From contig PUQB01000024.1 of NCBI GenBank assembly GCA_003024785.1, positions 1,000,689 through 1,064,688 on the forward strand: a stretch of DNA of 64,000 bases, in the 5' to 3' direction. Origin of the DNA: Selaginella tamariscina. Its lineage: Eukaryota; Streptophyta; Lycopodiopsida; Selaginellales; Selaginellaceae. The notes under the pieces were generated by a model that worked only from the letters and a program-made list of their open reading frames with translations, was not told the DNA's origin and searched no databases. The translations under genes and the position numbers were made by a program. Positions 4,376-62,835 of the stretch are shown here, piece after piece (the first letter of the stretch is position 1; each line of letters opens with the position of its first letter).

Positions 4376-4399
4376 TAATATACACACAATGAATATATT

Positions 4400-41241: not shown

Positions 41242-41989
41242 ATGGATGTGTTAGCTAATTTGATGGCTGATGACAAACTACAGTTTAACAACAGCAGCCC
41301 CACCTCTCCTTTTCATGTCAAGGCAATGGAGCTAAAAACGATCAGACACTTTAAGGAGTGGTTAGAAATACACTGCCATAAACTGGGTTGAACCTCGGCT
41401 CTAGCATATGAGAAGGTCAACAAATATTTGTAGGTGACAAACGATGATATGTTTATCCAATAGGTAAATCAATTAGAAAATCTGGGCAGAATCTATTACA
41501 TATCAACATGAGAAAGAAGAACATCGCCATAACGCCTTCTCTTATGGCAGTCCTTTAATAGCGGAGAACTGAGTTGAACTTGATAAAGAAGGACACTACG
41601 AATCATAACAAGCCTTACAGAGACTTTATGGAGTAACATCACTACCTACATAAAACTATTTTAATTGTTCTAAAAAATCCTTCTTTAGAAAAGGCGCTAG
41701 AAGATTTGGGAGAAGCTTAGTGTGCAAGCATGTACAGAGAATTTTTATTATTAAATTCTTGCACACTTACCTGATATCAGAAAGTAACAGCGAAGATGAA
41801 TTGTTAATGAGTTATTAAAGTAATAAATAGTTGTGAATGAATATAACATAAGACATTTTTGTATATTTCATGTATATTTGTACATAAAATAAATTCTCAA
41901 GGACTAATGAAGCTTTTAGTTCAAACATGGGTCACACATTAACAAAGTAAATAATATATATTGGTAATTATAAGGCTAGCTAAATTATT

Positions 41990-42300
41990 TTACAGATGTA
42001 ATAAGGTGACTGGTTACTTAAATCTATATAAGCATGTGGTCGACATAGAAGCAAATAGTGATGTGGAAATGCAAACCACACACTTTGTTGAACAAAAAAT
42101 CAAAACCTAAATCATACTTTTATTGTTGCAAGGATCTTAAAAACTAATGATCGTCCTCAACTTTAGATGTGTCATATAATCAGCCTATTTGGATGGGTCG
42201 AATTATCGATATATCTGAAGTCATAACAAAAAACGTTGATAAAGTCACGATTAACAAAACTGTATGAGAATGTATGTTTTATAAAGCTTAAAACAATTAC
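41990..42300 (+). pseudogene. 3' end of the transposase gene, relic (copy 2)
   Basis: Matches 9985-10290 and, more distantly, 57230-57800 (YKHVV.., PIWMG.IID-like pieces). Frameshifted. Followed by the AT-rich right subterminal region to about 42830 and an inverted end-only copy to about 43035. Confidence 0.8.
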
Positions 42301-43425
42301 AAAATTATAAAATATCATATATTTAATATTCATAATTATTATAAACTCTTTAATAATAGTACCAAATTGTTTACTTATACTATATAAATTTATAAAACAT
42401 ATGGAAGATTGAATATATTATTATAGGATTTTGTATATTATATATATTATTATTACTAGTACAAATTTTTATTAATAATGTTATATTTAAATATTAATAT
42501 TTTAATAACAACATCAATATTTATACAATGTCCTCTTATGCTCTTCTTTTAATTTTTATATTAGGCCCATACAATCTTAAATATAATATATTATATAATT
42601 TAATACCTTCTACTTTTATAATGTTATTAATTTTTGTTCAATAAATGTTATAATTTATTATACAAAATAAAATATTCTAAAGAATATGTTGTTTTCAAAC
42701 ATATATTTTAAAGAATATTCCTTTAATATTAAAAAATGTTAATTAAATAGTTAAAATTGTTAATTATTATGAAATGGGAATACAACCATGGCCATTTTAG
42801 TTACAACTTGCATGCATGTCTATAGTCCCATTTTTAATAACATTAGCAATTTTAAATATTTAATTAACATTTTTTAATATTAAAGAAATATTCTTTAGAA
42901 TAATATATGTTTAAAGAAAGATTTAAAAATATATTTATTAAATAATTAATTAAAAATTAGAACTTAAGTATTAATTAATATTTATTTTTTATTCCCATTT
43001 TCCTATATCATGCCCATTTTAGTTACAATATGCACTATAGTCTTACTTCATTTACATATGTTTATTTACATAATTAATTTCTGAAATACTTTATAAAATC
43101 AGAATTTTTGTCATGCATTTCCAATCGAGAAATGTATCTTTATTAAAGTATACTCTTTTAATACATTACTTAGACACATAAATAGACACACATTCTGTCT
43201 TTAAAGACATTATATATGTGTGTGTGTGACAAAGAATATTTTAATTTCATGCAATATTAAGCAACTTTTAATAACAAACATAATATTATTAGGCTAAATT
43301 TTTATGATGAACATAAATTTTAAAATTTTTAACCATCTAAGTTAAAAATAGTTGACGTTGTAACAACGGTGTTAAGATACTAATTAACACCTCCGGTGGG
43401 TGTTTGAGTTCAATTAAGGTTTTAT

Positions 43426-43450
43426 GCACGTTGTAACTAAAGTGGGCATG
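43426..43450. repeat. Left terminal inverted repeat
   Basis: The core TTGTAACTAAAGTGGGCATG is the reverse complement of the right end apart from two mismatches over 25 bp. The flank to the left (43035-43425) is unrelated to the transposon and is also present at 11050-11437. Confidence 0.8.
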
Positions 43451-43711
43451 ATACGTGAAAATGGGAATATAAAATAAATTACTAATTAATACTTAAGTTT
43501 TAATTATTAATTAATCATTTAATTAATATGTAATTAAGCCTTAAATATTAATTAATTAATTAATTAATCCTTCAATAACCTTACTTAGTAAGGAATATTC
43601 CTAAAATATCTTAGAATATTCATATTATTCTAAAAATAGTTTACAATAATGAAGAAATACTATCAAACATAATTACAAATGAAATCATTTTCTTATCAAC
43701 ATGTTAATTTT

Positions 43712-44893
43712 TTATAAATACTTTCTTTCTATCATACAAAGAAATCTTTTCATTTTGTCTAAATCATCACTCTCCGGATTAATCAAATCATTTTGGTCAA
43801 TATCTTGATGTTGTTGCCACCACTTAACACTCTCACGAATGCAATTGGGAGTTGCCATCCTTGTTAATACATAAGATGTGATAAGAGAAGGTCTGCATAA
43901 AGGCTCATCTAAAAACTGACGTTCCTTAAGAATAATATTATAAAGCGCCCGGTTGCTATCCTTCATTTTATAAAATTCAATATCACGAGAAAGAAAAGCT
44001 TCAGGAAATGTATGATACGGTGGATACTGCTCACAAAAATTTTCGAGATTCTTCTTTCTGAGGCACGTATCCAAGTAGTTCACTAGCTCATCCATGATAT
44101 CGGTATCAGAATATGGATCGAAAGTGATTGGATGAATACAAGCAATGTTTTGGTTGAGCATAGCCTTCTGAGGAGAGTCGTCTACTACTAACATCTGTGC
44201 ATTCTTCATTATCCTTAAGCGACTGATCTCCCCATGAGTCCCAATTATTCTTTCATTCTTGAAGAAGTATGGCTTGCTTTCCTTTCTTATATTGTGAAAT
44301 TCGAGAGGTTTATGACACATTCGCTGGTCAAAAATCCAATCTTTACGAATCACCTCTTCTGCAACACTACAATGTTTCTTAAGTAAATTCAACAGCGGTG
44401 TTAAGTTATGAATCTGCATGCATGACCAAATCCCCACAAGCGCACCCATCTCCTTAAGCTTTTGAAAGAGACGATCCAACCCTGGACGAAAAATAATATC
44501 ATATCGAAATTTACCATGACAAGGAATGAAATCTCCTTGTTTGATTTCTTTTTTCCTATCCTCGGGCCTTTGTCGATGAAGCAGAACACCATTGACATCC
44601 AACAACACAATATGGCCATGAGTAACATGAGATAGCGTTGCCTCTTGAATACTTTGCAAATCACTTGTTTGCTCCCTTTCACATTTATCCGTTGCCACTA
44701 TCTCGTTGCCTATCCCTTCATCATTTAATTGTACATCATCCTTACAAGATTCAGATATTGCATGCGCTGAAGAAATTGATTTCGGAATTGAAGCCAATAA
44801 AAATGATGATGAAGTGGCCCCCATGGTAACGATGTTTTGAGCTGCATTATTATCCATTTCCTGCATGAACTCTGTCATTCTGACATGTGGCAC
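43712..44893 (-). CDS. FCP1/NIF-like HAD-family protein encoded in the transposon
   Basis: 393 codons from the first ATG (44893). The second ATG (44878) directly follows a CAG acceptor-like site, so the true start may be there or in an upstream exon (a small exon 44968-44933 has both splice signals). Residues about 93-105 hold the HAD motif I, LLDVNGVLLH. The usual DxDx signature of FCP1/SCP phosphatases reads D-V-N-G, so the second catalytic Asp is Asn. GIWSCM fits motif II and MLVVDDSPQKAM fits motif IV. Plant proteins with DLNG in this position exist. With Asn replacing the acid/base residue, phosphatase activity is doubtful and a binding role is possible. The gene lies between the left TIR and the ParB/methyltransferase-like gene on the same strand. 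Copies 1 and 2 lack it. Confidence 0.75.
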   Translation of the reverse strand: MPHVRMTEFMQEMDNNAAQNIVTMGATSSSFLLASIPKSISSAHAISESCKDDVQLNDEGIGNEIVATDKCEREQTSDLQSIQEATLSHVTHGHIVLLDVNGVLLHRQRPEDRKKEIKQGDFIPCHGKFRYDIIFRPGLDRLFQKLKEMGALVGIWSCMQIHNLTPLLNLLKKHCSVAEEVIRKDWIFDQRMCHKPLEFHNIRKESKPYFFKNERIIGTHGEISRLRIMKNAQMLVVDDSPQKAMLNQNIACIHPITFDPYSDTDIMDELVNYLDTCLRKKNLENFCEQYPPYHTFPEAFLSRDIEFYKMKDSNRALYNIILKERQFLDEPLCRPSLITSYVLTRMATPNCIRESVKWWQQHQDIDQNDLINPESDDLDKMKRFLCMIERKYL

Positions 44894-45409
44894 AAGAAAT
44901 TGTCGCCAAACCCCTCTCTTACCTCATGCCAATGCTGAAAATCCATGTTCTCAATTATTTCATTACATCTGCAAAATGATAATTAGCTGACCTTAAAATT
45001 ATCAAGGTATATTATTTACCTTGTTAATGTGTGACCCATGTTTGAACTAAAAGCTTCATTAATCCTTGAGAATTTATTTTCTGTACAAATATAAAAGAAA
45101 TATACAAAAATGCCTTATGTTACACTCATTTACAACTATTCATCACTCTATCAATTCATTATCAATTCTTCTTCGCTATTACCTTCTGAGTGAGGCGAAG
45201 AAGGTCTAAGCCGCTTGTGAGATGGTTCAAGATCTTCTGCATCTTCTATTGATGTTTCCATGGGTCCTGGAGTGTGCGAATGTTCTGTACTCCTCGAGAT
45301 AACTTCCGGTCTAATATCTGATTGAAGTTCGTCTCAGACTCCGAGATTGAACCAGATTCACCTTCAGAGCTATCGCACTTATCTGGAGGGAACTTTCTCA
45401 AATACGCCT
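44894..45409 (-). other. Intron-like spacer between the two minus-strand transposon genes
   Basis: Contains a possible small exon (44968-44933, TTTTGCAG|ATG..GAG|GTAAG) and the sequence 45010-45180 that recurs at 9780-9960. The reverse strand just after 45410 encodes an acidic stretch (SDSSEGESGS-like) in another frame, so the upstream gene may originally have extended here. Whether the two genes are one transcription unit is unresolved. Confidence 0.4.
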
Positions 45410-48289
45410 TTATGGATCGTTGGGGTACTCAGTTGAGACCCAATCTATCCACTTGTTCAGGTCCTCAACCATGGTCTTATCCTTTTCAACGGCAAACACA
45501 CATGTATGCCGAAGGTAACACTCCTTCAAGACGGACCCCCTAGTGCAGTAGTCAAAAACCCACGCATCACTGTGAGGACCCCTGATCAAGTTGACGATGC
45601 TCCGTGCCGCTTGACTTGTAATGTTTGGATAACGTACATTGCCGAATACGTCACTCATACCTATCGGTGTATCGGATGGAGGTTCAGGGCCGTTGGAGTG
45701 CAAACAGATGCCTGGCCAGTCATTTGGAAGCTTGAAATTGTTTGGCGCATTCCTAACAACCAAGTGAACAACGGTATCAATGCACTTGGGATTAGCATCG
45801 TTCATATAAAATCCTGTCCAACGATGTCTATTCTTCTTGGCGAAGGCGAAGGCAAAAGTATCGGTGACATGAGCAAGAATCAAGAAATAAATACCTGAAA
45901 AAGTAGGTATCAGTGAAGAGCGCAAGCATGAATTCAATAATAAATACCTTCTATGTATATGCTTGCACGGCTAAGTTTCTCCACCAGATCCTCTAGTGCC
46001 CTATCTGTCGAAAGATTTTTTGACACCCGCCGATCCATCACGAACAATTGAAACGGTTTCCTACAAGCAGTGATGTTACCCCATAAAGTCTCCGAATCTA
46101 ACAACAAACATCTGTAGGGCTTGTCGTGATTCGTAGCATCCTCCTTTATAAGGTTCAATTCGGTTCTCCGCTGCTGAAGGACTGCCATAAGAGAAGGCGT
46201 CATCCCAATGTTCTCCTTTTTGGCGTTGGCGTGCAATAGATTCTTGCCCAGATCTTCCGATTGGTTCACCCATTCGACAAGCATATCATCGTTCGTCACA
46301 TGCAAATATTTGCTGACCTCTTCATATGTTGAAGTCGAGGTCCAACCCAGTTTGTGGCAGTGTATTCCCAACCACTCCTTGAAATGCCTGACCGTCTTCA
46401 ACTCCATTGCCTTGAGATGAAAAGGAGAGGTTGGGCTGCTGTTATTAATTTGTAGTTTGCCATCGATCACCAAATCAGCCAAGACTTCCATCTCCTCCAT
46501 CGTTGTTCCATTTAAAGGCTTCAACCATGTGAGCTTGAAATCGTTGTCTACATCCTTTGTAGATTGAACAGACTTAGCCTTCGGCGTCTTACTGGGTTTC
46601 TTTGCAGACTTTTCTGAGGGCTCCCCTTCACTTGTCTGCTTCTTCTTCAGTGTTCCTTTTGAAAAGGATTCCATAATCCCCAACCATTTGGCAAAGATCC
46701 TATCTTCGGGGCAAGAAATCAACATCATCAGAAAGGATGTTTCCTTCCCGCCCACCTGGGCAAAATCAACTGCTGCAATTTCTTCAACTCTCTGAGGAAA
46801 AAGACAGATTAATATACCGGCGAGATAAATCCCGCCCAAACAATTTGCTTACCCGGTATTCCGCAGATTGTGTATTCCCTGCGGTAGCTCTTTGTGGTCG
46901 CTGAAGAGATTCCCACACGGCTCGCGTGTGTTTAAACTTCTCCCATATTTTGCTGTTGTAGTGGTTGGTGTCGGCAGCGTCCCATTCCGCCGATAACTTA
47001 TGGTACTGCTCGATTGTGAGATTCGGCTTAGCTAAAAACGCCGATCTTTTTGTCAGCTTCTCACGGGTATGCTCGGAAAGTTTTGTTGCCATCGTTCCTT
47101 TGTTGTGTTCTCGAGAAGTCGTTGGGCTGCCGTTATTGTGTGCTGGCCACTAATGATGTAGTACTTGATAGATTTTTATTCTCCGTCTGAATCTTCATGA
47201 GTTGTTCTGGTGTTGTGATCCAGACTTTGTCAGCGCCCTTCCTTCTTTCATAGTATGGACACAAAACAGCATTATGTGGAACGGTATAAGAATTGTCGTC
47301 CTTCATCTTCTCCATGAGCTCAGCTACACGTTCCTGGTTGAGTGGCCTGTAATTGAAGTTTGGGTTGACGCTGCAATATTTAACCCTACAAGGATAAATC
47401 TTATCATCCAACATCATTTCCTTGTGACTTATTGCAGCATGAGATGCCACAGGTGCAGCTGACAAAACGATTGATGATTTTCTTTTGCGATCCGAATCAA
47501 CATGTGTGATCCCCGACTGCAGCTGTTCTAGTGTTCTCGGCACACTCTTCCAGCTCCCAAAGCTTCCTAAGCAAATTGAACGTGATCTGTAGAGAACCTG
47601 AGACCGAGCCACCTCTCAATCTCCTTATGATGTCGCTGTGTTCTTCTTCAATGTGAAGAGGGAAGATTGCTCCACTTGCTGATTTTCTGTATTGTGAAGC
47701 AATATCTCCTGACAATACACCTACTCGATGAGTCTGAAGATCTTCGAAGTAGACATCCAGATGGATCCCCTCCATAGATGGGCTTTCGTTGAGTTGAAGA
47801 AGAACTCCAAGGTCAACATCATTAGTGAACACGTGAACGTCATTATCCACAAGTCGACAAAACCACCCGAAATTAATGTTGTAACTGACGACCTCTGGAT
47901 CCGAGAACGTGACATTGGATGGAACAAGGCATATGTGTCGAGCATCGTCCAATCTGGGTTCGCAGCCTGCTTTCGGGTGTCTTGACTAGCGAATCTACTT
48001 TCCATTGTTTTGCTTGTCCATGAGATGTGACAGAGGTTAATTTGACAGCACCATGGTTGCTCCAATGCGCTTCCCATTTATCTTAAAATATGGCCAAGTT
48101 GATTCCAGAATCCCCCTGCCCATCTCTTCTCCTGCTCTTGTCTTTAATGTCACCTCAATTCCACATCTGAATACAAAAATGATTAGTTCAAGTATCCGAG
48201 TATAACAGATTTTATTTTAATTCTTACCCAGAATTTGACGACGACTCCATACTAATGACTCGATCTCCTTGTTTGATCAAATCGTCCTT
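45410..48289 (-). CDS. ParB/Srx-like plus DNA amino-methyltransferase-like protein, multi-exon, frameshifted
   Basis: Exons on the minus strand: 48289-48228 (ATG at 48250), from 48166 (open to about 47970), then coding in shifted frames to 46853, then 46791-45948 and 45894-45410. Introns of 53-61 bp have canonical sites. The N-terminus reads VTLKTRAGEEMGRGILES. Around 47380-47110 lie NPNFNYRPLNQERVAELMEK and, after a frame change near 47180, KYYIISGQHTITAAQRLL, which I read as a ParB/sulfiredoxin-like domain with GQHT in place of GERR/GxHR. A Lys-rich linker (46640-46560) follows. The C-terminal part has FVMDRRVSK where beta-class methyltransferases have DPPY/W, followed by FLILAHVTDTFAFAFAKK and AWVFDYCTRGSVLKE..CVFAVEKD, matching the order motif IV then motif I (FxGxG). 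At least two frame changes (near 47970 and 47180; perhaps also 47510) mean this copy is damaged or has unresolved introns. Assignment is from motifs only. Confidence 0.5.
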
Positions 48290-48388
48290 CTGCAAAATAA
48301 TACACTATGAATAATATATAAAAACGCACACACACTTGTATAAACCCGAATATACAAAAATAATACACAGAGAGAAGTAGACGTAATT

Positions 48389-48475
48389 AACTGTCCGAAG
48401 CTCACATTTGTGTTAGTGCAAAAGAAAGATAACATTTCGTTTTAGAACCACCACAAATGTGAGCTCTGGACAGTT
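48389..48475. repeat. Short hairpin upstream of the ParB/methyltransferase-like gene
   Basis: AACTGTCC..AGCTCACATTTGTG (48389-48412) pairs with CACAAATGTGAGCT..GGACAGTT (48452-48475): a 24-bp stem with two adjacent mismatches and a 39-base loop. It lies about 100 bp upstream of the first exon found. A stem of this size could feed small RNA production or simply be a tiny inverted-repeat insertion. Confidence 0.7.
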
Positions 48476-48588
48476 TTACATAGATTCCTAGCTTTTACTC
48501 GAAATATTATGATAAGATGATAAAAGTAAATAAAATGAGATATGCAACTTATATATACTAATACACATATATATTCACATGGAAGGTG

Positions 48589-50125
48589 CGGCGGGATTAA
48601 TCTCGCCACCCTTCAATCTTGCCACCCTTCTCGGTCTCAGAGAGAACTGGGCAGGATTTATTTCTCACACCCCTTCAGTGACTCCAGAAAGGAGGCGGGA
48701 TTAATCTCGCCCACCATGTAAGTGATGTTTAAATGAATTTCCCCACCCTTCCCAATTCTCTCCATTGGTATGTTGAAAACCTTCTACGTCTCAGACAGAA
48801 ACGTTTGGGATTGGTCCGACTCACCAATGGAGAAAACAAAGGAAGGGTGGCGGGATTCATTCCTCCAACAGGCATTGAAGACTCAGCAGGATTAATCCCG
48901 CTGCCCAGGGCCTTTACTCGGTCCCTATGCGGCGGGATTAATCCCGCCGGACGCCAATTCCCTGCGCGGAATCGGGCGGGATTAATCCCGCCGCCTAGGC
49001 ACTTCAGGCAGGCCAATGGCGGCGGGATAAATCCCGCCCGATTCCGCGCAGGGCATGCGTACGCGGCGAGATTAATCCCGCGTTCCAGGCCCTTCACTCA
49101 GGCCTTAGTCGGCGGGATTAATCCCGCCGAACGCCAATGCCCTGTGCGAAATCTTGCGGGATTAATCCCGCCGCCTAGGCCCTTCAGGAAGGCCAATGGC
49201 GGCGGGATAAATCCCGCCCAATTCCGCGTAGGGCATGCATACACGGCGGGATTAATCCCGCCCACCATGTAAGGGATGGTGAAATTAATCCCACCACCCT
49301 TCTCAGTTCCCTTCATTGGTATTTTGTAAACCTTCTCCGTCTCAGACAGAGTTAGTCGGGATTGATTCAATATACCAATGGAGGATTAATCCCGCCACCG
49401 GGTAATGAAGGTTCGGAGAGACTAATCCAGCCGCCCTCTCGTAAATCATGCGCTCACACATATATATTGGCTGCGGCATTTTGAACAGGGATGGGCAGGG
49501 ATGGGTGGGGGCGGGATTAATCCCGCCGCTTATATCCTGCGGAAGTGCCTGAGCGGCGGGATTAATCCCGCCGCCCTCCGCGAAGGGCATGAGCGTGGGG
49601 CCGGATTAATCCCGCGTTCATGTCCTGCGTGAATTCCCTGGGCGGCGGGATTAATCCCACCGCCTTACGCGCAGGACATGTCATGCAGGCTCTTCGGTTA
49701 GCCTTCCGTGCAGGATCTTTCATGCAGGCTCTTCGGTTAGCCTCATGAGCGGCAGGATTAATCCCGCCGCCCATCCCCTGTAAATGCCCTGCGCGGAATC
49801 CGGCGGGATTAATCCCGCCCATTAGGGCCTTCACACAGGCCATTGCCGACGAGATAAATCCCGCCGCATTCCGCGCAGGGCATGGGTGAGCGGCGGGATT
49901 AATCCCGCCGCCGAGGCCCTCACGCAGGCCATGGGCGGCGGGATTAATCCCGCCGCTCTTCGGTTTGTTGTAGAGCGGCGGGATTAATCCCGCCGCCCAT
50001 GGCCTGCGTGAAGGGCCTCGGCGGCGGGATTAATCCCGCCGCCATGGCCCCAACCATATAGCGGCGGGATTAATCCCGCCGCCGAGGCCATAAACCTATA
50101 ACGGTGGGATTAATCCCGCCGCTCG
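48589..50125. repeat. Left array of GGCGGGATTAATCCCGCC palindromes
   Basis: More than 20 copies of a perfect or near-perfect 18-bp palindrome. Measured at the GG of GGATTAATCC they occur at 48889, 48935, 48979, 49025, 49069, 49115, 49159, 49205, 49249 (steps 44-46) and again at 49514, 49559, 49603, 49648, then 49755, 49806, 49852, 49896, 49941, 49981, 50027, 50067, 50107 (mostly 40-46). Spacers are themselves GC-rich partial inverted repeats (for example CCTGCGCGGAAT and ATTCCGCGCAGG). 48900-49080 and 49081-49260 are a 180-bp tandem duplication carrying four palindromes each. The array lies just upstream of the minus-strand gene. Frames through it encode repeated GGINPA or AGLIPP on both strands, a by-product of the palindrome. 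Confidence 0.9.
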
Positions 50126-50129
50126 AGGG

Positions 50130-50928
50130 GCTTAGCGTGTGTGTGAGAGATAAAATTAATAAATAAAAAAATTATACAGATAAAAACACACACATATATA
50201 TATGTGTGTGTGTGTATATATATATATATGTATGTATGTATGTATGTATAGGAGTGTACGTGTGTGTGCAAGAGATAGATAAATAAATAAAATTATACAG
50301 TATTGGTACACATAATATATGTGTGTACATAGGTATATGTATGTGTGTATATGTATATCGTGTGTATGCGTGTGAGCGAAACAAATAAAATCATACAGAT
50401 AAACAAACACACACACACACATATATATACACAGGAGTGTGCGTGTGTGTGCGAAATATAAAACTAATAAATAAATAAAATTATACAGATAAACACACAC
50501 ATATATATGTGTGTATATAGATATATAATCCATAGAGAAAGAGAGAGAGTCTGTGAATATATAAGCATATATATAAACTAGTGTTGTATGTATGTATATA
50601 TGTATATAGGTATATATATGTGTATATGTATATTGTGTGTATGCGTGTGTGAGCAAAACAAATAAAATCATACAGATAAACAAAAACACACACACACACA
50701 CACACATATACATACACAGGAGTGTGCGTGTGTGTGCGAGAGATAAAACTAATAAATAAATAAAATTATACAGATAAACACACACATATATATATGTGTG
50801 TATATAGATATATAACCCATATGAATATATAAGCATATATATAAACTAGTGTTGTATACTATTTGTTAATATGCATTGATTATAATATATATAATATATG
50901 TGTGTGTGTGTGTGTGGTGTTGTGTGTG

Positions 50929-50967
<39 letters not shown>

Positions 50968-51290
50968 GTGTGTGTGTGTGTGTGTAAAGCAGTGTGCGTG
51001 TGTGTGGGAGAGATAGATCAATAAAAAAAAAATTTACAGATACTGGTACACATAATATATGTATGTATATATGTAATAGGTATATATATATATGTGTATA
51101 TGTATATCGGTGTATGCGTGTGTGAGCGAAACAAATAAAATCATACAGATAAACAAACACACACCCACACACAAATACATACACAGGAGTGTGCGTGTGT
51201 GTGCGAGAGATAAAACTAATAAATAAATTTATACGCACACTCCTATACATATTACATACATACACACATACACACACACACACCAGATCT
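50130..51290. repeat. Microsatellite block of the complete element
   Basis: Long GT/AC, TATG and AATAAATAAAATTATACAGATA units, arranged as an imperfect higher-order repeat whose landmarks GGAGTGTGCGTGTGTGTGCGA and AACAAATAAAATCATACAGA recur at intervals of roughly 230-310 bp. It corresponds to the microsatellite arms of copies 1 and 2. Long open frames here are low-complexity and not genes. Confidence 0.8.
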
Positions 51291-52479
51291 CACCTGTGTG
51301 CACAGCCGCCGCCGCCGATTTCATAGCCGCCGCCTCTTGAAACCCTAAGAATATACCTAAACCCTAAAGGAATTAAATATATATATTAACCCTAATAGAA
51401 TATTCCTTCTGAAATATACTTAAACCCTAAAAAGAATAAAATATAGATTCGCCCTAAACGAATATTCTTTCATTATATTATTACGCGTGCGTGTGCGTGG
51501 GTGTATCACATACACCCCAAAAATATAAATCATGCAGGGATTTAACATGTGTGTGTCCATGAGAGTGTTAAAGTTTCATGTGTATCAATACATACATACA
51601 CATTGCATATATTAATACACATAATATATACATACACACGTGTATACACATAGACATACATACATATTACATGGGTTTGGGTTTTGGATTTAGGATGGAT
51701 CATGCATGGTGTGTATGTATGAGAGAGAAAGTGTTGAAAAATTATTTTTGTACACATTGCATATATTATAATGTACAAGATATACATACACATATTATAC
51801 ACAGATATACATACATAGTATATGAGAGAAGAGAGACAATACATATTATGGATCATGCATGGTGTGTATTATACACACAGACATACATACATATTAGTAC
51901 ATAATATTAGAGAGATCGTACATATTATAGATCATGCATGGTGTGTATGTTTGAGAGAAGAGAGACAGTACATATTAACATGGATCATGCATGGTGTGTA
52001 TGTATGAGAGAAGAGAGAAAGTAACATATATACATACAGAGTACACATATATACATGCACACGTGTATACACACAGACATACATACATATTACATGAGTA
52101 AATTCATTGTGTTACATATTAGGGTTTAGGGTTAGGGTTTAGGATGGATCATGCATGGTGTGAAGAGAGAGTGTTGAAAAATTACTTTTGTACACACATG
52201 TATACACAGGGTTTAGGGTTTGCTCCCAACAAGCTTAATATAAATATTACACATGTAAATTCAATGTGTTACATCACACAGATTGAGTACATATATCATA
52301 CATACGTTGAATGATGTTTTCAATAAAGAAGCAACATATTTCTTCAGTTTGGTTTAGGGTTGTGCATGTGTGTGCATATGTGTTTTTTAAGTTCTTGTAA
52401 TGCGTGTGTAAATTTATGATTGTGTTTATATATGTGTGCAAAACAAACATCGAATAATTAAGAAAATAATATTAATAAA
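51291..52479. other. Central core with GCC-rich leader-like block and telomere-like motifs
   Basis: Starts with a CAGCCGCCGCCGCC block and AAACCCTAA repeats (51340-51440). Later it has four copies of GATCATGCATGGTGTG (51698, 51850, 51935, 51984 region and 52147), then GGGTTTAGGGTTAGGGTTTAGG at 52122-52143 and CAGGGTTTAGGGTTTG at 52208. No protein-coding gene is seen. The motif resembles the plant telomere repeat TTTAGGG. Confidence 0.6.
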
Positions 52480-53200
52480 CACACTATGAACATATTTTAA
52501 ATTATACATAATAATATATGATTTTATCTAATATATAGCCATATATAGTTTTAATAATATATATTAATTTAATATTGATAAAAAGGTTTAACATTGAAAT
52601 ATTCTTGAAATAATAAGAAATTAATTGAGAAAATCCCATTAATATATACAAATGTAAATTAAGTACTCAAATAATTAACTAAATTAATTATCATAATCAT
52701 GTTTAATATTGGAATATTCTTGGAATAATAAGAAAATAATAAAGAATATCCCATTAATATAAAGAAGATTAATTACTCAAGTAATTAAGGAAATGATATT
52801 ATATATATTTATTAAAACTATATATGACTATATATTAGATAAAATGATGTATTATTATGTATAATTTAAAATATGTTCATAGTGTGTTATTAATTTAATA
52901 TTGATAATAAGGTTTAACACATGAATATTCTTGAAATAATAACAAATTAATTGAGAAAATCCCATTAATATATACAAATGTAGAATAATTACTGCAATAA
53001 TTAAGAACAAGACTAATTTAATTATGATAATCAGGTTTAATATTAGAATATTCTTCAAATATTAATAAAATATTAAAGAATATCCCATTGATACTAGGAA
53101 ATGAAAACTAAATACTCGAGTAATTAAGAAAATAATAATAATAAACAGACTATGAATATATTTTAAATGATACATAATAATATATCAATTTATTTATTGT
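52480..53200. repeat. AT-rich direct and inverted repeats
   Basis: The stretch AACACACTATGAACATATTT.. (52480-52565) recurs inverted at 52800-52892 and, partly, in direct orientation at 53145-53190. The block TTGATAA..AGGTTTAACA..GAATATTCTTGAAATAATAA (from 52573) recurs from 52900, with related blocks at 52700 and 53030. No coding frame. Confidence 0.7.
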
Positions 53201-53339
53201 ATAAGTATATATTTATATATATATATAATATAAATATACTTGAATACTAAGAATGTAGAATATAGTCTAAAATTTCGTAATATTAAACAGCTTGAATCAC
53301 TTGAATAACATTAAATGCAATTTTAAAATACTCATTGGA

Positions 53340-54682
53340 ACTGGAGAGTATATATGTCAGAGTGTCGGATATTTGTGTCAACTCATCTTAAATTTTATTT
53401 TCTGTTCTTTTTAAAAAATTTGAATTTCTGACATATGTATTGTCGGTCTGACATGTAAATTTGAAAATGCATTTAATTTCCCACTCAAATTCAGATCTGG
53501 TTCTTTCTCCGGCAAGGGTTTCTTCATTTCTGTATTTTTCACTCTTTAGATCTTCTTTTTTCTTCATAGTGATCATCTCAGGAGCGAGATTAAATTGGGT
53601 GCTATTCTTTATAGGAAAGCACGGCGCCTTCAGTGCTGTTTACAAGTAAGTATTATAAACAAATTTAAAAATACTTATAAAGATTCACTCTCTTACATTC
53701 TCTCTTAAAATTACAATTTAGGGGTTTAGGAATGCATTAGGATTATAATATATTCCGTTAGGGATTTATCCCGTTTAAATATCCTTTTAACTTAATATTC
53801 TAGGTTAACCGGGCGGCGGGATTAATCCGGCCATTTCTTTTTCGCCTCTTCGAAGAGGTGGCGGGATTAATCCCGCCACCATCTCTCGGGCAATGCTTCT
53901 CCGCCACTGAAAAAGAGTGGCGGGATTAATCCCGTCGATAACCTTCTCAACTGATGAAGAGTTACCAGAATTTATTAGAAAGAGTTGTCGGCGGGATTAA
54001 TCCCGCCAACCATTTTAGGAGGCAGGGAAGGGGTGGCGGGATTAATCTCGCCACCACTTCCCTGTTTTAAGGATTTGGGGACAGGATTTATCCCGAGATC
54101 TCTTTGAAATCATAGTTTTGGAGAGAGTTATGTGCGGGTTTAATCCCGCCACCCATTCCCCGTCGTAAGAATTGTGGGCGGGATTAATCCCGCCTTGGAC
54201 TCCCTCCGACAAGGAAGAGCCGGCGGGATTAATCCCGCCGCCTCTTCCTTCGGAGGGAGTCCGGCGGGATTAATCCCGCCGACTCTCTCCGAGGATGAGT
54301 CGGCGGGATTAATCCCGCCGGACTTCCTCGTCGGAGAGAGTCGGCGGGATTAATCCCGCCGGACTCCCCCGAGGAGGAAGAGGCGGCGGGATTAATCCCG
54401 CCGGCTCTTCCTTGTCGGAGGGAGTAAGGCGGGATTAATCCCGCCGACTCTCTCCGAAGGGGTTGAGTCGGCGGCGGGATTAATCCCGCCGACCGTTCCT
54501 CGTCGGAGGGATTCGTGGGCGGGATTAATCCCGCCCATCAGTTGTATTAATCAAACATGAGATATTATCTCTAAACATAATTATGTATTATTGCATATGC
54601 ATATTATTAAGTAACCGTAATTCAGATTTCTTAAAATATTGCATAAACAGATATCATAAATAATACAATTATTTATGTGCAG
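53340..54682 (+). promoter_or_regulatory. Probable promoter, 5'UTR exon and long 5'UTR intron of the transposase gene
   Basis: TATATATG near 53349 is followed by a CT-rich leader (53500-53580) typical of plant 5'UTRs. A strong donor ACAA|GTAAGTATT lies at 53645/53646. The next good acceptor, TTTATGTGCAG|GACAAT, is at 54682, seven bases before the first ATG (54689). The 1037-bp intron contains the right palindrome array. Exon limits are inferred from splice signals only. Confidence 0.55.
53810..54540. repeat. Right array of GGCGGGATTAATCCCGCC palindromes, about 42-bp period
   Basis: Sixteen or so palindromes. GGATTAATCC positions: 53819, 53864, 53923, 53994, 54039, then after two degenerate copies 54181, 54226, 54267, 54306, 54347, 54389, 54432, 54477, 54522. 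The last nine are spaced 45, 41, 39, 41, 42, 43, 45 and 45 bp. Spacers are variants of CTCTTCCTTGTCGGAGGGAG and its inverse, so neighbouring units can also pair with each other. It mirrors the left array about the element centre. Confidence 0.9.
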
Positions 54683-54688
54683 GACAAT

Positions 54689-57600
54689 ATGTTTAATACT
54701 GGAGATAAAGTATGTCTTCTTCGGAACAACGAGATAGTTGGCACTGGAACTGTGGAAGTTCGAGATAATAATGCATCATGTCACAATATTGCCCAAGGAT
54801 CTTGTGTGTACGTATGGGTGAACACCATTTACAAGCATGTTGAGGTTCTGGGAATGGAATTTGAGGAGGGTTCTCCTGTATTGTGGAATTTGGATGAAGT
54901 CAAGGCTGACACAGAATATGCAGAGTCACAAACAAATAGTAGCACGAGTTTACCAGATGATGGCTTGCCTGCTGTGATGGATGAGGTGATTCTCTTTCTT
55001 CGTGAGATTGAAGTCGGAAGAGGCATCATCACAGCTATAAATCCAATGGAAGCAGTGTCAGAAGAGAAACTAGGGTCCGACTTCGTGGGTGTAGTTGTGA
55101 CAGAGGTTTCACCTAATGGCACATTGTATCCTGGATCCCTCGTGAGGTGGCGAACATCTGAATTAAGACGGCAAGATGGTTCAACATATTCTGGGTTGGA
55201 TTTCAATAATAACAACCCGGAAGAACAACTCATATTTGAAGAGGTTCCTTGCATTGGTCCTATTGTAAGAAAAAGGCGATTCATGGGTTGTAGATCTTCC
55301 CCTGCAAGTTTCAGCAAGAGGGTAAAGATGGATCCTACATCTTCCGAAAGTGTTACGAGCATTTCCACGATTGACTGTTGCAAGAAGAAGTGTTGTCAGA
55401 TGGCAGACCGGAATGAAATTACCCAATGTAGACATGTCTTTCGTATGCTCACCCAAAAGCAAAGGCATGAGTTTGTATATGCTGCACTAACTGGGTGTAT
55501 TGATGGAATGGCCTCGGACACAGGTTATCAGAGTACATCCATGGTATTTAATAAGGTGGCCATCTGCTTCAAAGCTTGGTACAGTATATACGGGATCCCA
55601 AAGACCACGTTCTACCGTCGGAGGGATGAGTGGCTAGATGGAGCGCGAACCTCAGTTCATGGGAACACTCGCTTGGTCAAAACCCGCTCTCACATCATGG
55701 CAGCCATAGAGATACTCAAGGCTTTTGTGGAAGCAAATGCAGACAGGATGCCTCACAAATGCCGAACCACAAATGCAGGGGTCAGGGAAAATCTCAAGGT
55801 TTTGCCTTCAATCTACACTCAATTGAAACTGTGTGAACATGTGAACAAGTGCCTCAGTTTGATGGGGCTCCAAGCAATCTGCACTGGTACCTTCAACAAC
55901 ATATGGAATACTCATTTTAAGGATGTGGAGATTGCAAAACACTCTAGCTTTTCTAAGTGTGACACTTGTACATCATTGAAGGCTGCAGAGGCTTGTGCAA
56001 AAACCTTGGTGGAGATCACTACCATTCAAAGGAAGATGGAGGCCCACATGATTGCACAACAAACTTGCCGGTCTCAGTACTATGCACACCGCATGCTTTC
56101 TGTGTCACGCCCATCAGAGTACCTGTGCTTGATCCATGACAAGATGGATCATTCAAAGACCAGCATTCCAAAGCTCTTTGCAACACCAAAGTGCCTTGGA
56201 AATGTCATGAAACTTCCGATTTCATTGACAGGTGTGCTAACACATGGACACGGTTGTGAGTCATATGGACACTTTTCACTTCCACATTGGTCTAGCGACT
56301 CCAATTTCACTATTGGGTCGTTAGCCATGTGTTTCAGAAACCTTGAAGCCCACTCACAGACAAGTCCTATCAGTGATCTCAAAGTGAAGAAACAACACCT
56401 TCAACCTTTACATAATGCTCTCATGAACATCTGCACTTGAGGCTACTTGGGAATATGAGAGGCATTGTCAGCAACCTGCACAAAAAACAGATGGCCCTGT
56501 TGAGAGTTCAGGTTCAGTGGAGGGATCTAGCTCAAATAGTGTACATGTGTCCTCAACATCAAATAAGCTTCCTCGTCATTTGCTTTTACAGATGGATAAT
56601 TGTGCAGGCGAGAACAAAAATAGGTAAATCATTTTACTTAAGGGTTTCTCAAGCTCATACTTACTTTTATTTTCTAGATATGTGCTAGCATACTTGTCAA
56701 TGCTTGTTGCCAAAGGTGTGTTTGAAACAATCACGCTCAGTTTCCTTATGGTTGGTCACACTCATGAAGATATTGATGCGTTCTTCAGCAAGGTCTCCAA
56801 CTCTACAAAAAGGACAAGTGCACTTACCTTACCGCATATGATGAATCTTTTTGAAAATTGCATCTCCAAAAAAAGTTGTGCTTTGCTTGTGACTGAGGTG
56901 CCAGACTTCAAAAAATTTCTCAAGGAGTATATAAAAGAAGGGAGTGATTCTTTAGTTGGTCACCTTGTGCCGCTACAATTCTTTTTCTCCATACGAGATG
57001 GTATACCTATTATGCAGTACAAGTTACGGCCATCAGAGCAGGAGTGGTTACCGAAAGAGGGCTTAATGCTCTTCAAAAGTGGAGAGGATGGAAAGCCACT
57101 TCTCCCAGAAGGACAACCAGACCCTATTCCATTGAGTGCCCAGCTCAAGGAACAAGAGGTTATTATTGATGGCATCAAAAAATATGTGGCATGGGTTCAA
57201 AAATCGATGCCAAAGAATTCTGATAAGGCAACTGGTTACTCAGAACTATATAAGCATGTGGTCAACTATTGGGAGACTGTTGTTCGAGAGTTGGAAGGGC
57301 CTACTGTCACAAGTACAGAATTGCAACACCCTTTCTGGCCTAAAACAAGGTGGCGAGAGGAGATTGAAATGACATCACTGAGCATAGACGACATAGAAGC
57401 CAGTAGTGATGTGGAAGTGCAAACCCCACACTTTGTTGGACAAAGGAACCAAAAACCTAAAGCATACTTTGATTGCTGCAAGGATCTTCAAAAACTAATG
57501 ATGGTTCTCATTACTCCAGATGCGTCATATAATCAGCCTATTTGGATGGGTCAAATTATCGACACACCTGAAGTAATCACAAAAAATAGTATTGTTAAGG

Positions 57601-57899
57601 TTGCATGGTTCAAACCACAAAAAAGGCGACACGAGAAGGAGAGCGAAAGATATAATGGATGCCTAGAGAAAACATGGTCTCCCAATCAAAAAGACCCAGC
57701 ATGTTTTATAAATGTTAAATCCATTCGATATGGGTGGATGTCAAGAAGCGTTGATAAAGTCACGATTAACAAAACTGCAAGGGAATGTATGTTTTCTGAG
57801 CTTAAAAGCAACAAAAAAATACAAAATATCATATATTTAATATTCATAATTATTATAAACTCTTTAATAATAGTACCAAATTGTTACTTAACTATATAA
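54689..57899 (+). CDS. Putative transposase (DUF7869-like) of the large transposon
   Basis: The first ATG after the leader acceptor is 54689. The first long frame runs to 56438. Coding then continues in a shifted frame (from about 56440) to 56623, a 54-bp intron (56624-56677, AG|GTAAATC..TTTCTAG|A), and an open frame to 57899. The N-terminus (VCLLRNNEIVGTGTVEVRDN) resembles the N-terminus of the minus-strand gene. Then come KTTFYRRRDEWLDG (possible DNA-binding helix), a Cys pair CDTC, and three acidic blocks in order: LCLIHDKMDHSK (56125), LLLQMDNCAGENKN (56580) and FLMVGHTHEDIDAFFSKVS (56740). Their order and spacing suit an RNase H-like D-D-D/E nuclease. The family name is from memory. Either one frameshift or an unrecognised intron lies near 56435. 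Confidence 0.65.
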
Positions 57900-58308
57900 A
57901 TTTAAAAAATGATATGGAAGATTGACTATATTATTATAGGATTTTATATATATATTATTACTACTACAAATTTTTAATTAATAATGTTATATTTAAATAT
58001 TAATATTTTAATAACAACATCAATATTTATATAATGTACCTCTTATGCTCTTCCTTAATTGTTATATTAGGCAATATATTATATAATTTAATACTTCTAC
58101 TTTTATAATGTTATTAATTTTTGTTCAATGAATGCTATAATTTATTAAAGGGTAGAATACAAAATAGAATATTCTAAAGAATATTCTCTTTTCAAACATA
58201 TATTCTAAAGAATATTCCTTTAATATTAGAAAATGCTAATTAAATAGCTAAAATTGCTAATTATTAGGAAATGGGACTATAGCCATGCCCATTTTAGTTA
58301 CAACTTGC
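57900..58308 (+). repeat. Right subterminal region and terminal inverted repeat
   Basis: AT-rich, with several AGAATATTCT palindromes (58150-58220), ending in the 25-bp TIR 58284-58308. The same sequence, more diverged, ends copies 1 and 2 and, inverted, forms half of the MITE at 28812-29070. No gene. Confidence 0.8.
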
Positions 58309-58549
58309 ATCGTTGTTCGTCTTATCCTCGGGTAACTATATGTGACATAGGCACATACACATACACATAGGGACACAGCTACATATATATACGAGTGTCC
58401 AATATACATGCATATACGGGTATTAAGATGTAAAGCTTGTTACATATTGGCAGTGCAATTCTTATGCAGCTATAGCACTTTACCACTCTATGTCATTGTT
58501 ACTCAGGTATGCTGAACACACACACGTACGAACGCACGCACTCGTACAG

Positions 58550-58868
58550 ATGGGATCCCACTATAGGAAGGCAATCTTCACAAAACAGATCAACAAGAGG
58601 ACACAGGATGCACGATCGAAACTAAAACAGGCCAAGAGTCAACAAAGGCACCAGCAAGCTCGGAACAAACATCAGTTAGGAGCAGAAGTCCAAACAGCAA
58701 ATTCGGAGCTGAAGCGGACTTCCACGTCACGCGATATTCCACGTAAGGAAGAAGAACCGAGCACATCTATTCAAACCGTGCCATCTCCGGGACATCGTAT
58801 TCTGGAAATCGAGATGTCTACCAATGAAGAGACAGTTCTGCAGATTGTGGAAACACCTGATCAATGTT
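58550..58868 (+). CDS. Probable 3' exon of an unrecognised host gene
   Basis: After an acceptor-like GTACAG at 58549 an open frame reads KAIFTKQINKRTQDARSKLK and further Lys/Gln/Arg-rich, then Ser/Pro-rich sequence, ending EEPSTSIQTVPSP..VETPDQC at TAG 58868. The composition is coding-like and unlike the AT-rich surroundings. A continuous frame extends upstream to 58490. No domain is recognised; part may form a basic coiled coil. Upstream exons would be interrupted by the transposon ending at 58308. Confidence 0.4.
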
Positions 58869-59014
58869 AGCCCAATATGCTTACATGCGTACGTGTGAGT
58901 CTAACCAAGGAACTTGAGACGAGTACATTGTTTTCCCTGCCTTCCCCACCCCCCAAACACACACGCACGCACGCACCAGAAACCAGATAAATTTGCATCC
59001 TACAGAATTGCTTT

Positions 59015-59174
59015 TCAATGTTGTTCGTTGACAGCAGCTATAAGCTCCTTGCGAACTTGAGAAATAGCACCCAAACCACTGTTTTGACCGAAGTTATAAT
59101 AAATAATACAATTATCTGCTGAGTGTGTGTGTAGACTTACGTGCAATCTGTAACAGTGTATGAAATTCATACTG

Positions 59175-59222
<48 letters not shown>

Positions 59223-59540
59223 TATGTTTATGCCTTATATCGTATATATTTAATAAATTCTACATAAGGATGTAAATCCTAATTTTGGCTATGTCATTTA
59301 GTGTTCAGACTCAGTGCGCGAGCGTGTGTATGTGCACCAACCTGGAGAATGTGCTTAATTTGTTGTAAAGATTTTCTTGTCGCATGATACTTAGTAGTTC
59401 ATCGATTACCGTAAAAGCTTCATTATCATGACTCCCATCTATCTTGTATAAGTTGCACGATGAAGGCACCTTGATCTTGAACCGAGTGTATTTAGAGGCC
59501 ACCTTAAGCAGGGCCTCAATCACTGGCACCACTATAAGCC
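59015..59540 (-). CDS. Probable last two exons of an unrecognised host gene
   Basis: Exon 59540-59342 has acceptor CATGACAG|GG and donor CTCCAG|GTTGG and encodes VVPVIEALLKVASKYTRFKI followed by KVPSSCNLYKIDGSHDNEAF and IDELLSIMRQENLYNKLSTF. A following exon 59078-59015 (acceptor AAAACAG|T) keeps phase and ends LGAISQVRKELIAAVNEQH with TGA. This strongly looks like real protein-coding sequence. The family is not recognised. Upstream exons should lie beyond 59600 and may be disrupted by the retrotransposon at 59934. Confidence 0.55.
59177..59222. repeat. GT then GA dinucleotide tracts
   Basis: A (GT)n tract of about 22 bases followed by a (GA)n tract of about 23 bases. It falls in the intron of the minus-strand gene at 59015-59540. 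A further AC/GT tract is at 59575-59618. Confidence 0.85.
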
Positions 59541-59586
59541 CTGTCATGAAAATAAGTGAATCAGCATAGACATGTACACACACACA

Positions 59587-59623
<37 letters not shown>

Positions 59624-59933
59624 GTGCGGTTGTAAGTATGTGTGTTTATGTGTAAGTATCATGCCAAGGAATATAAAGATGCTTAAACAGTAAAAATAAG
59701 CGAAATGTTTAGAAGTAATGTACGTATATATGTGAAACGTACACACAAATATATACGGATATAAAGTCGATATGCACGTATAGATGTGTATATGTGTGTG
59801 TGCAATAGATACATATACGCACATTGTAATAGAACCCAACGATGAACGGGTGCATTCACATAAATTATATATATATATATATACAACACAAAAATGATAG
59901 TGTGCATTCAGCTACAAGTCTAACTGCATACGT

Positions 59934-60145
59934 TGTTATGACCCATATAATGAATCAAAGAATATTCCCAGAAAGGTATAAGCTAGAATATTCTTAAGGA
60001 GCTATACCTAGATCTAAGGGAGAATTAAGGGCACACTATTATTGGAAGCCTTTCTTGGAGAGGAGCGTGTGGAGACTAGAGACAGCTCGGGGGAGGTCGG
60101 GTGTTATTGTGAGGGTCTCTAGATTGTACGTAGAGGTGCCTAACA
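59934..60145 (+). mobile_element. 5' LTR of a Ty3/gypsy element
   Basis: Starts TGTTATGACCC and ends GTGCCTAACA, giving TG..CA termini with TGTTA/TAACA inverted ends, 212 bp, immediately upstream of a primer binding site. Two GAATATTC motifs (59960-59967 and 59986-59993) lie in its first third. The 3' LTR is outside the window, so the limits rest on termini and the PBS position. Confidence 0.65.
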
Positions 60146-60148
60146 ATT

Positions 60149-60166
60149 TGGTATCGGAGCGAGGTT
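60149..60166 (+). other. Primer binding site, initiator tRNA-Met type
   Basis: TGGTATCGGAGCGAGGTT follows the LTR after three bases. The common plant initiator-Met site begins TGGTATCAGAGC, so there is a single difference in the first 12 bases. It marks the start of minus-strand DNA synthesis in the element. Confidence 0.75.
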
Positions 60167-60170
60167 CGAG

Positions 60171-62222
60171 ATGAGTGACCGGTGGGAAGGAGAAGACAAC
60201 ACCAATGAGGAGTGGACGAACCAGGAAATCGTGCTCGAATTATACGCTATGGCGAAGGATTCCAAGCAATTTCAAGAGTACGTGACTGGTTCCTTGGAGG
60301 TGATTCGTGAGCGGTTGGATACTATTGAAGATCAACTTGCTCAAGGAACCGTGACTGGTAAGAGCAGGGTGCTAGATCGTCTTCGTGTTCCACCTTTTAC
60401 CGGTAAAGAATCTGCGGATGAGGCTATGAGTTGGCTTGAGATAGCAGCGAACTTGCTCACTGCACAGGGAGTAACTACTGAGCAGGCTATGATAGCTGTA
60501 TCGGTAGCCTTGAAGGATAAAGCTGCGAGGTGGTGGACACGCATTCGAAATCAGCGCCAGTTAGCTCACCAGGAGATGATTGCAACTTGGGAGGAGTTCT
60601 CTGAGCTATTTAAGAAGGAGTATGCTCCTCGGTTCGATGTGTCTCATGCAAGGCGTGAATTGCGACATTTAGAGCAAGGGAAGATGACCTTGGACGATTA
60701 CATTGAGAAATTGAGTCAATTACTTTGCCGTGTACCTGACGTGTCTGTCAACCAGCAGAAGGATTATTTTGTAGATGGGCTGCGAAGTGCTAACTTGCGC
60801 AGACATCTTAACTCGGTAATTCAGTCCAAGACTTTAGAGGAGCTGTTCGAATATGCTCGCTTGCTAAATGAGGAGGATAAGGTGTTTAAGGAGAATGAGC
60901 GACATGGCAAGAAGCGTGGTAGGAGCACCTCTCCAAGTCCTCGTGAGCACCAGGAGTATAGAGGGAATAGCCATCGTGCTAGGCCGAAGTCCAAGCTGGT
61001 AGCTTCTAGTTCTTATCGCACCGACAATCGGCCTAAGAAGATTGTCAAGGTGTTTGATAGTGAACGTTGCCACCTGTGTGGAGAGGTGGGACACTGGAAG
61101 GCAAATTGTCCCAGGAGGAACAAGCCCAAGGGCAAGGGGTTCAATGGTGACAAGGACAAGGAGACACCTAAGAAGCTTCAGGAGATGGAGCGTGGAGAGG
61201 AACACAAGGGAGATAGTTCTAAACCACGAGGTAAATTTTTGTCTGTTCTTGCTCGACAGGTAAACTGCATGGCACGGGAGGAGCCACACACACGTGCTAT
61301 TGTGGTGGAGGGACAACTTGGTGAACGTCCAGTGCGAATCCTCTTGGATAGCGGAAGTAGCGATAACTTTGTATCAGCAAAGTTAGTGCAGGAGTGCAGC
61401 TTGCCCATGAAGACTGTGCCTCAATACGAGATTGAGGGCTCAGCTACTGTCACACAGAGCTGGAATGCTTGTGTGGAGGAGTTACAGCTGACGGTTGGCA
61501 AAACTCAGCTGGTGAAGACTTTCTTCCTTGCGGAGTTAGCGCGTGTGGACCTCATCCTTGGGATGAGCTGGCTGGAGCGTGTGGATCCTGAGATCAAGTG
61601 GAGCATCAAGCGAGTGAAGCTTGAGTACAGTGGAGTGAAAGACACTTGGTTTGGAACAAGGCTTGAGTCTCCAAACAAGTATCTTTCTATTATGTCTTTG
61701 AAGAAATATCTCCGTAATAAAGAAGATCAAGTCTTTCTGATGTATATACGTGAGTTAGATTCTTCTAATATCACACTGGGCGAGGCTGCTGTGCAAGTTG
61801 TCCTTGAGGAATTTGCTGATGTCTTCCCTCCTGAGTTACCTCATGGCTTACCACCTGCAAGAGGTGTGGAGCATGAGATTGTGTTGGAACAGGGTACGAA
61901 AGCCATTTACCGTAAGCCGTTCCGACTGAGCCATGCTGAGGAGCAAGAGGTTAAGAGACAAGTGATGGAGCTATTGGAATATGGCTTCATACAACCGAGC
62001 AAGTCTCCATTTGGTGCACCAGTATTGCTTGTCAAGAAGAAGGATGGCACCATGAGGATGTGCATAGACTACAGAGCTCTCAACAAGCAAACAGTGAAGG
62101 ACAGGATGCCCATGCCACGTGTGGATACTATCATGGATCATCTCGGTGGAGCCAGAGTGTTCACCAAGATAGACTTGCGTAGCGGGTATCATCAGATTGC
62201 TGTGAAGGAGGCAGATATCTAA
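60171..62222 (+). CDS. Gag-protease-reverse transcriptase polyprotein (5' part), Ty3/gypsy
   Basis: 683 codons from ATG 60171, five bases after the PBS. Gag capsid region about residues 60-235 ([28 protein letters not shown]). CCHC zinc knuckle [14 protein letters not shown] at about 299-312. Aspartic protease [11 protein letters not shown] at about 389. Reverse transcriptase from about 560, with [48 protein letters not shown] and [13 protein letters not shown], which includes the first catalytic Asp. The frame is lost at about 62220, inside the block that normally precedes the FG.FEF.VMPFGL motif, so the copy is not functional as it stands. Confidence 0.9.
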
Positions 62223-62817: not shown

Positions 62818-62835
62818 GGCTTAGAGGGATCTGCA

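Follow-up and report, generated by a model that had tools for sequence, protein, structure and literature searches.

A giant DUF7869 transposon family of Selaginella tamariscina with accessory genes and arrays of one palindrome

Structure and abundance of the element

The stretch of DNA analyzed here (the window: 64,000 nucleotides of contig PUQB01000024.1 of the plant Selaginella tamariscina) contains a transposable element of 14,887 bp, at positions 43424–58310, that begins with ATGCA and ends with TGCAT. Its genes are divergent and flank a repeat-rich center, as had been described in an earlier reading made without database searches (hereafter, the sequence-only reading). The left block, on the minus strand, comprises a gene resembling NIF/FCP1-type phosphatases and a four-exon gene that was labeled ParB/methyltransferase-like. 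The right block, on the plus strand, comprises a gene encoding a DUF7869 transposase. The variable center (50135–53300) is rich in TG/CA microsatellites and AT-rich repeats. Two arrays of one 18-bp palindrome were described as symmetrically placed; each is indeed located 5' of one gene block, but their distances from the ends differ (in the window copy, the left array is 5.2–6.7 kb from the left end, and the right array 3.8–4.5 kb from the right one).

The terminal inverted repeats (TIRs) of the family are ∼28 bp in length. In the window, the left TIR (43424–43451, plus strand) reads ATGCAC GTTGTAACTAAAGTGGGCATGA, an end shared with other copies, and the right TIR (58283–58310) reads ATGCAA GTTGTAACTAAAATGGGCATGG on the minus strand. 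With up to three mismatches allowed, the TIR pattern matches at 43425–43451 (plus) and 58283–58309 (minus), where 0.01 matches are expected per window, and it has six matches in all in the 64 kb. Across the assembly searched (300.7 Mb in 1391 contigs), a 21-base core of the TIR is present at 2667 + 2589 = 5256 sites at the same tolerance, versus 0 + 8 for its reversed control, consistent with the proposal that the element is bounded by TIRs.

Ten other full, TIR-bounded copies were identified as convergent pairs among 100 exact TIR sites listed, and each was read as two overlapping halves. Target duplications were sought around 21 copies, which are these ten, the window copy, and ten pairs read as 101-base pieces. 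An exact 4-bp duplication surrounds 9 of the 21, versus 0.25 expected from cross-pairs of left and right flanks taken from different copies. Combinations of border and length were reported only if they yielded at least five matches and, apart from the 4-bp duplication, the sole combination to exceed the cross-pair control is its own two-base sub-match (9 versus 2.2 expected). The duplicated 4-mers (ATGT, ATTA, ACTT, TAAT, TCTT, TAGA, CGTT, CTAT, and ATAA) have no G or C in three cases, one in five, and two in one. Paired TIRs in many copies and a target duplication of fixed length identify the element as a class II TIR DNA transposon. A mostly AT-rich 4-bp duplication fits those reported for Sola2 in PMC3627910; the accessible parts of PMC4455052 and PMC10294476 hold nothing on Sola target duplications.

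The window copy has no 4-bp target duplication at its borders. Over 2 kb, its right flank (58254–60238) shares 99.05% identity with that of the copy on contig C46 (L083), which has a CGTT duplication, and 1 kb of the left flank of the C46 copy has no match to the left flank in the window. Because the two copies share a right flank and not a left flank, the window copy would most simply be a product of recombination between copies.

Anatomy is shared across the family. The ten other copies range in size from 11.9 to 15.4 kb (mean of 14.2 kb over 11 copies, window copy included). All ten have the FCP-like gene (94.2–99.4% identical to that of the window copy), the transposase gene (95.6–99.6%), and the right array. 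Nine also have a left array and retain the ParB-like gene region at both of its ends; this region is 91–99% identical, with internal deletions in copies E3 and E9 and a short duplication in E5. Copy E2 no longer has a left array, and only the 3' part of its ParB-like gene is kept. These losses excepted, gene order, ends, and array positions are common to the ten, in which genes and arrays lie within the TIRs. An artefact or a one-off collage of repeats is ruled out by this shared anatomy.

Marker counts suggest a family of ∼1,700–1,900 copies. A 25-base marker in the transposase leader has 1901 sites genome-wide (control 11) and a 33-base marker around the palindrome in the ParB-like-gene intron has 1670 (control 0), both with up to three mismatches. 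If every marker represented a near-full copy, the family would amount to ∼24–27 Mb, or 8–9% of the 300.7-Mb assembly, a share to be read knowing that not every marker does so and that E2 and copy L094 are deleted copies. In L094, on contig C585, the ParB-like gene and the left array are mostly gone, and what remains is a transposase gene, FCP-like sequence, and the right array together with the right end. On contig C1, hand tallies pair 9 of 13 exact transposase markers with a ParB-like marker located 5.4–6.8 kb away on the opposite strand and, in reverse, 9 of 12 exact ParB-like markers with a transposase marker. Two further DUF7869 loci were considered as possible other families and rejected, as both are copies of the same family (one is L094). 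The family is a recently amplified giant DNA transposon.

The window also has two older, decayed relatives of the element, at 1–10792 and ∼37618–42813, in pieces ∼66–88% identical. In both, ParB-like exons are reversed in the right arm, where they adjoin the right TIR and the transposase gene at its 3' end; the two represent a rearranged, probably non-autonomous subfamily. Elsewhere, pairs of left ends ∼250 bp apart occur on C1 (2394829–2395104, back to back) and C80 (563737–564006, in the same direction) and are possibly adjacent, nested, or truncated elements. To the right of the element, at 60171–63881, frames of a Ty3-like retrotransposon polyprotein are recognizable by eye, broken into several, with a CCHC knuckle, protease, reverse transcriptase, RNase H, and integrase; fragments resembling reverse transcriptase were likewise seen by eye at 36075–37265 on the minus strand. 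The right flank in the window has no match to plasmids.

Genes of the element

The transposase is encoded by two exons and is 1021 amino acids in length in the family consensus. Coding exon 1 (54689–56623) has one frameshift in the window copy and coding exon 2 (56678–57805) ends at the stop codon of the family consensus, beyond which the frame of the window copy continues to 57899. Upstream is a putative leader intron (53646–54682) with a donor of TTTACAA/GTAAGTATTA, present in 10 of 11 copies, and an acceptor present in all 11. PF25273 (DUF7869) matches the spliced consensus with E = 9.1e-47 (159.6 bits; curated cut-off of 26 bits) and exon 2 of the window copy alone with E = 3.2e-25 (89.3 bits). 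Of 6840 candidates, 60 are relatives at E ≤ 0.001, the closest having up to 51% identity; named relatives from Riccia and Physcomitrium have ∼32–37% identity and, like the one LEAFY-type SAM domain in the genome, point to a land-plant host. When 25 of these relatives are aligned with two family exons, the acidic motifs DKMD, QxDN....NKN, and GHTHEDxDA prove near-invariant (≥90%); they may correspond to the acidic catalytic triad that, with an RNase H-like fold, is expected of a transposase of class II TIR elements. Within the family, IHDKMD is present in 11 of 11 copies, QMDNCAGENKN in 8, and GHTHEDID in 10. The mean pairwise ratio of nonsynonymous to synonymous substitution rates (dN/dS; codons with gaps or stops were skipped, here and below) is 0.33 over 11 copies, so that this protein, too, is under selection, as is the ParB-like one. 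A search of viral contigs with the transposase alignment returned 64 pattern matches and no relative among them.

The NIF/FCP1-phosphatase-like gene (43712–44878, minus strand) is open in the window copy and has the motif DVNGVLL. PF03031 matches it with E = 1.6e-12 (47.9 bits; cut-off of 21.8), so that both this gene and the transposase named in the sequence-only reading are borne out. NIF/FCP1-type phosphatases have a catalytic D-x-D motif. All 11 copies have LLDVNGVL, that is, D-x-N where D-x-D is expected, which suggests that the FCP1-like protein may have a non-catalytic role. Its mean pairwise dN/dS is 0.54 (11 copies).

The third gene, on the minus strand, was modeled from ten copies as four coding exons specifying 976 amino acids. 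The first coding exon is at 48228–48250, with a start possibly further upstream. Exon 2 (46853–48166), which has frameshifts in the window copy, includes an N-terminal stretch resembling a transposase domain and a ParB-like stretch. Exons 3 (45948–46791) and 4 (45151–45894) have borders set by hand, and exon 4 includes a methyltransferase-like stretch that is unproven. In a search with exon 2, 88 of the best 96 sequences scored had no internal stop (selected as best from 6582 first-look candidates). Mean pairwise dN/dS is 0.32 (ten copies, E2 left out) and the gene is under purifying selection.

The sequence-only reading assigned ParB and methyltransferase domains to this protein, an assignment that the searches do not establish. 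What can be seen by eye are short motifs: a ParB-like run, NPNFNYRPLN ... YYIISGQHTITAA, with the short runs NPNFNYRPLN and IISGQHT; and a stretch resembling N6/N4 methyltransferase motifs I and II (VFDYCTRGSVLKECYLRHTCVFAVEKD) from which the usual glycines are absent, with VFDYCTRG...FAVEKD looking like a degenerate motif I. Pfam, PHROGs, and NCBIfam yielded nothing below E = 0.05, and the best match among PDB sequences was to an unrelated protein (E = 0.22). Residues 1–860 have no match at E ≤ 0.01 and exon 2 has none at E ≤ 10 among ∼5.8 billion proteins. Exon 4 of the window copy has no tblastn match to phage DNA at E ≤ 1. PF02195 (ParB_N) has no match over the whole genome and does match in 10 of 14 control genomes. 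Profile comparisons with hhalign scored 13.8 against eight N6/N4 methyltransferases (E. coli YhdJ and seven from phages; 60 shuffles reached up to 22.0) and 15.0 against nine YbdM-type ParB sequences (YbdM and eight phage relatives; 150 shuffles reached up to 21.7). The negatives from domain profiles, PDB sequences, and hhalign are weak because the copies are too alike for a rich profile and the yardstick sets had only eight and nine sequences.

The transposase and the ParB-like protein may share an N-terminal module. The N terminus of the ParB-like protein, extended by 13 upstream in-frame residues, has an hhalign score of 22.2 against the second DUF7869 N-terminal domain, above all 100 shuffles (maximum of 15.4).

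Palindrome arrays

The palindrome GGCGGGATTAATCCCGCC has 53 sites in the window where none is expected (up to three mismatches), and 27,128 exact sites genome-wide versus 0 for the control, in agreement with the arrays of one 18-bp palindrome first described. The 53 comprise 26 in the left array (48590–50120; spacing mostly 44–46 bp), 15 in the right array (53815–54535), a single one in an intron of the ParB-like gene (46819–46836), and 11 elsewhere. The right array is within the putative leader intron of the transposase gene. Left arrays have 5–26 palindromes in the ten copies with one (commonest spacing of 44–46 bp; up to three mismatches), and right arrays have 8–20 in 11 copies (42–45 bp). 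In E2, four sites scored as left belong to its right array.

The family and its palindromes coincide in location. On C1, 10 of 11 palindrome clusters either belong to an element or have a TIR, transposase, or ParB-like marker no more than 3.4 kb away, and the eleventh is a single palindrome 1.3 kb beyond an element end. This tally was made by hand from 100 exact sites listed, which reach 2.08 Mb of C1 (2.54 Mb).

Palindromes of the right array are constrained. Pairwise counts were made on six close copies, giving 15 non-independent pairs with one best high-scoring segment pair each, and a site was masked as palindrome if within three mismatches in either copy. Right-array palindromes differ at 9 of 4082 positions (0.22%) and their spacers at 275 of 11767 (2.3%), an ∼10-fold difference. 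The single palindrome in the ParB-like-gene intron, kept in 10 of 11 copies, has no mismatch at 270 positions in the same pairs. Alignment of all 11 right arrays yields mismatches of 4.0% in palindromes and 19.3% in spacers; the pairwise count is stricter and is preferred. A functionless tandem array is rejected by this constraint for the right array only. The constraint supports a sequence-specific role there.

CpG sites add to this pattern. In the right array, they differ at 1 of 1176 positions in palindromes and 63 of 1050 in spacers; in the left array, the counts are 100 of 1678 and 149 of 1736. In the genes, CpG differences number 15 of 1682 for the transposase, 29 of 938 for the FCP-like gene, and 87 of 2754 for the ParB-like gene outside its palindrome. 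CpGs are 4–5 times as variable as other sites in all three gene regions, which would be the usual mark of methylated DNA, and therefore the fixed CpGs of the right array call for an explanation, whether purifying selection, lack of methylation, or both.

Right-array spacers are partly self-complementary, so that a 144-base piece (54197–54340), taken as single-stranded DNA, folds back on itself over nearly its whole length (z = −12.5). The 15 bases flanking right-array palindromes have 5.2 of 15 paired, versus 4.2 of 15 in shuffles.

Possible roles of the palindromes

The sequence-only reading linked the palindromes to maintenance, methylation, or assembly of the transposition complex. The near-invariance of the right array favors a sequence-specific role, the left array does not, and what that role is we infer from anatomy and comparison. 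The arrays are probably docking sites for one of the element's own proteins. We give roughly even chances to the palindromes being bound by a dimeric protein that the element itself encodes and that controls or de-silences it. The transposase would move the element by cut and paste and a dimeric DNA-binding protein encoded by the element would bind the palindromes. This binder could be the ParB/methyltransferase-like protein or the transposase, which seem to share the N-terminal module. Binding would counter host silencing or set transposase expression, like VANC on VANDAL motifs, and the FCP1-like protein might act on the output of RNA polymerase II.

In the accessible part of the report on VANDAL elements, tandem target motifs are located in the introns of VANB/VANC and upstream of the VANA transposase, and repeat number varies between copies (PMC5735166). 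Likewise, the Selaginella element has several genes, its motif occurs in an accessory-gene intron as well as 5' of the transposase gene, and repeat number varies among copies. In anti-silencing systems of the VANC type, a protein of the element binds the tandem motifs of its own family and removes methylation. Unlike in VANDAL/VANC of Arabidopsis, the target motifs are others, and the comparison is one of anatomy alone. On that basis, VANDAL/VANC would be the closest working model.

A more specific form of self-recognition is possible and is advanced tentatively. An orphan protein derived from a ParB/methyltransferase and sharing its N-terminal module with the transposase would dock on the fixed palindromes of the leader intron, keep CpGs there unmethylated or occupied, and let the element reach ∼8–9% of the genome, with an FCP1-like pseudophosphatase tuning transcription.

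Several observations weigh against recognition by the element's own proteins. No statistical test upheld homology to ParB or to methyltransferases, and the label is unproven. The first N-terminal domain of the transposase scores 17.1 against the N terminus of the ParB-like protein, below the shuffle maximum of 20.5. The dN/dS of the FCP-like gene is weak evidence and, relative to the window copy, erratic (0.24–2.87). In none of the 11 copies examined are both transposase exons intact; open frames of >1,000 amino acids around several DUF7869 matches elsewhere in the genome suggest that intact copies exist. Lastly, the left array is unconstrained, its palindromes differing at 187 of 5681 positions (3.3%) and its spacers at 634 of 16798 (3.8%) in the 15 pairs. 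A left array that decays while the right one stays fixed argues against any model that needs both.

Alternatively, the palindromes could be sites for host transcription factors, or intron hairpins that favor splicing or expression of the transposase, with no element protein bound to them. We regard this, the next in line, as unlikely, although the right array does lie within the putative leader intron, the strong folding of the 144-base piece and the excess pairing of flanking bases agree with it, and the palindrome may resemble GC-rich E2F-like sites. The confinement of listed exact sites on C1 to the family or its vicinity (10 of 11 clusters) is at odds with it, and free spacers around a fixed 18-mer point to recognition of DNA more than to structure.

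In bacterial ParB–parS systems, the parS sites are palindromes clustered near the ParB gene, and the Selaginella element resembles them in having arrays of one perfect palindrome beside its ParB-like gene. A parS-like system for maintenance or synapsis, in which spreading or bridging of the ParB-like protein from the palindromes would bring the element ends together, or the protein would tether excised circles, is nonetheless improbable. Unlike its bacterial counterparts, the element is integrated in a eukaryotic genome, where partition is superfluous; none of its three genes resembles ParA, its ParB homology is unsupported, and the left array, which neighbors the ParB-like gene, is not conserved. 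About equally improbable is that only the transposase and TIRs matter, with both left genes and the arrays as mere passengers. E2 and L094, in which the ParB-like gene is mostly missing, speak for it, since such copies may have been mobilized in trans (or have lost the gene after insertion); against it stand the dN/dS of that gene, the 10-fold lower variability of right-array palindromes relative to spacers, and the recurrent pairing of transposase and ParB-like markers on C1.

Parts of this architecture have precedents among other transposons. Sola1-1_Ec32 is a 21.5-kb transposon of the brown alga Ectocarpus whose accessory protein, ParB-like and with an N4/N6 methyltransferase, has been suggested to bind and modify its own transposon; green and red algal elements are cited alongside it (PMC12477816, accessible part). 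The Selaginella element is likewise a giant DNA transposon with a large accessory gene on the strand opposite that of the transposase. It differs in its plant host, its additional FCP1-like gene, and its ParB and methyltransferase domains, which are unproven here, with methyltransferase motifs that are degenerate by eye. It also has palindrome arrays, of which the accessible part of PMC12477816 makes no mention for Sola1-1_Ec32. Given this precedent, the general architecture is already known, and the statement in the sequence-only reading that no described element has this combination was too strong. Fungal DNA transposons with a captured TET/JBP gene, proposed to escape silencing (PMC12730594, accessible part), are similar in being DNA transposons with a captured gene linked to DNA modification (the domain is unproven in Selaginella) and differ in host, transposase superfamilies, and the gene captured.

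Among the literature matches listed, there is no such plant element beyond these precedents and, in those checked for it, the term DUF7869 is absent. Within those matches, novelty seems to lie in the plant as host, in the DUF7869 transposase and its FCP1-like companion, in palindrome arrays of which the one in the transposase leader is kept fixed, and in how much of the genome the family occupies. The family extends a little-known class of giant transposons with accessory genes, which in the papers cited above are from algae and fungi, to a plant that has a LEAFY-type gene. One large protein and one palindrome provide a directly testable pair for the study of how transposons control themselves or escape silencing, and the substitution pattern of the right array is evidence of function that is independent of any domain name.

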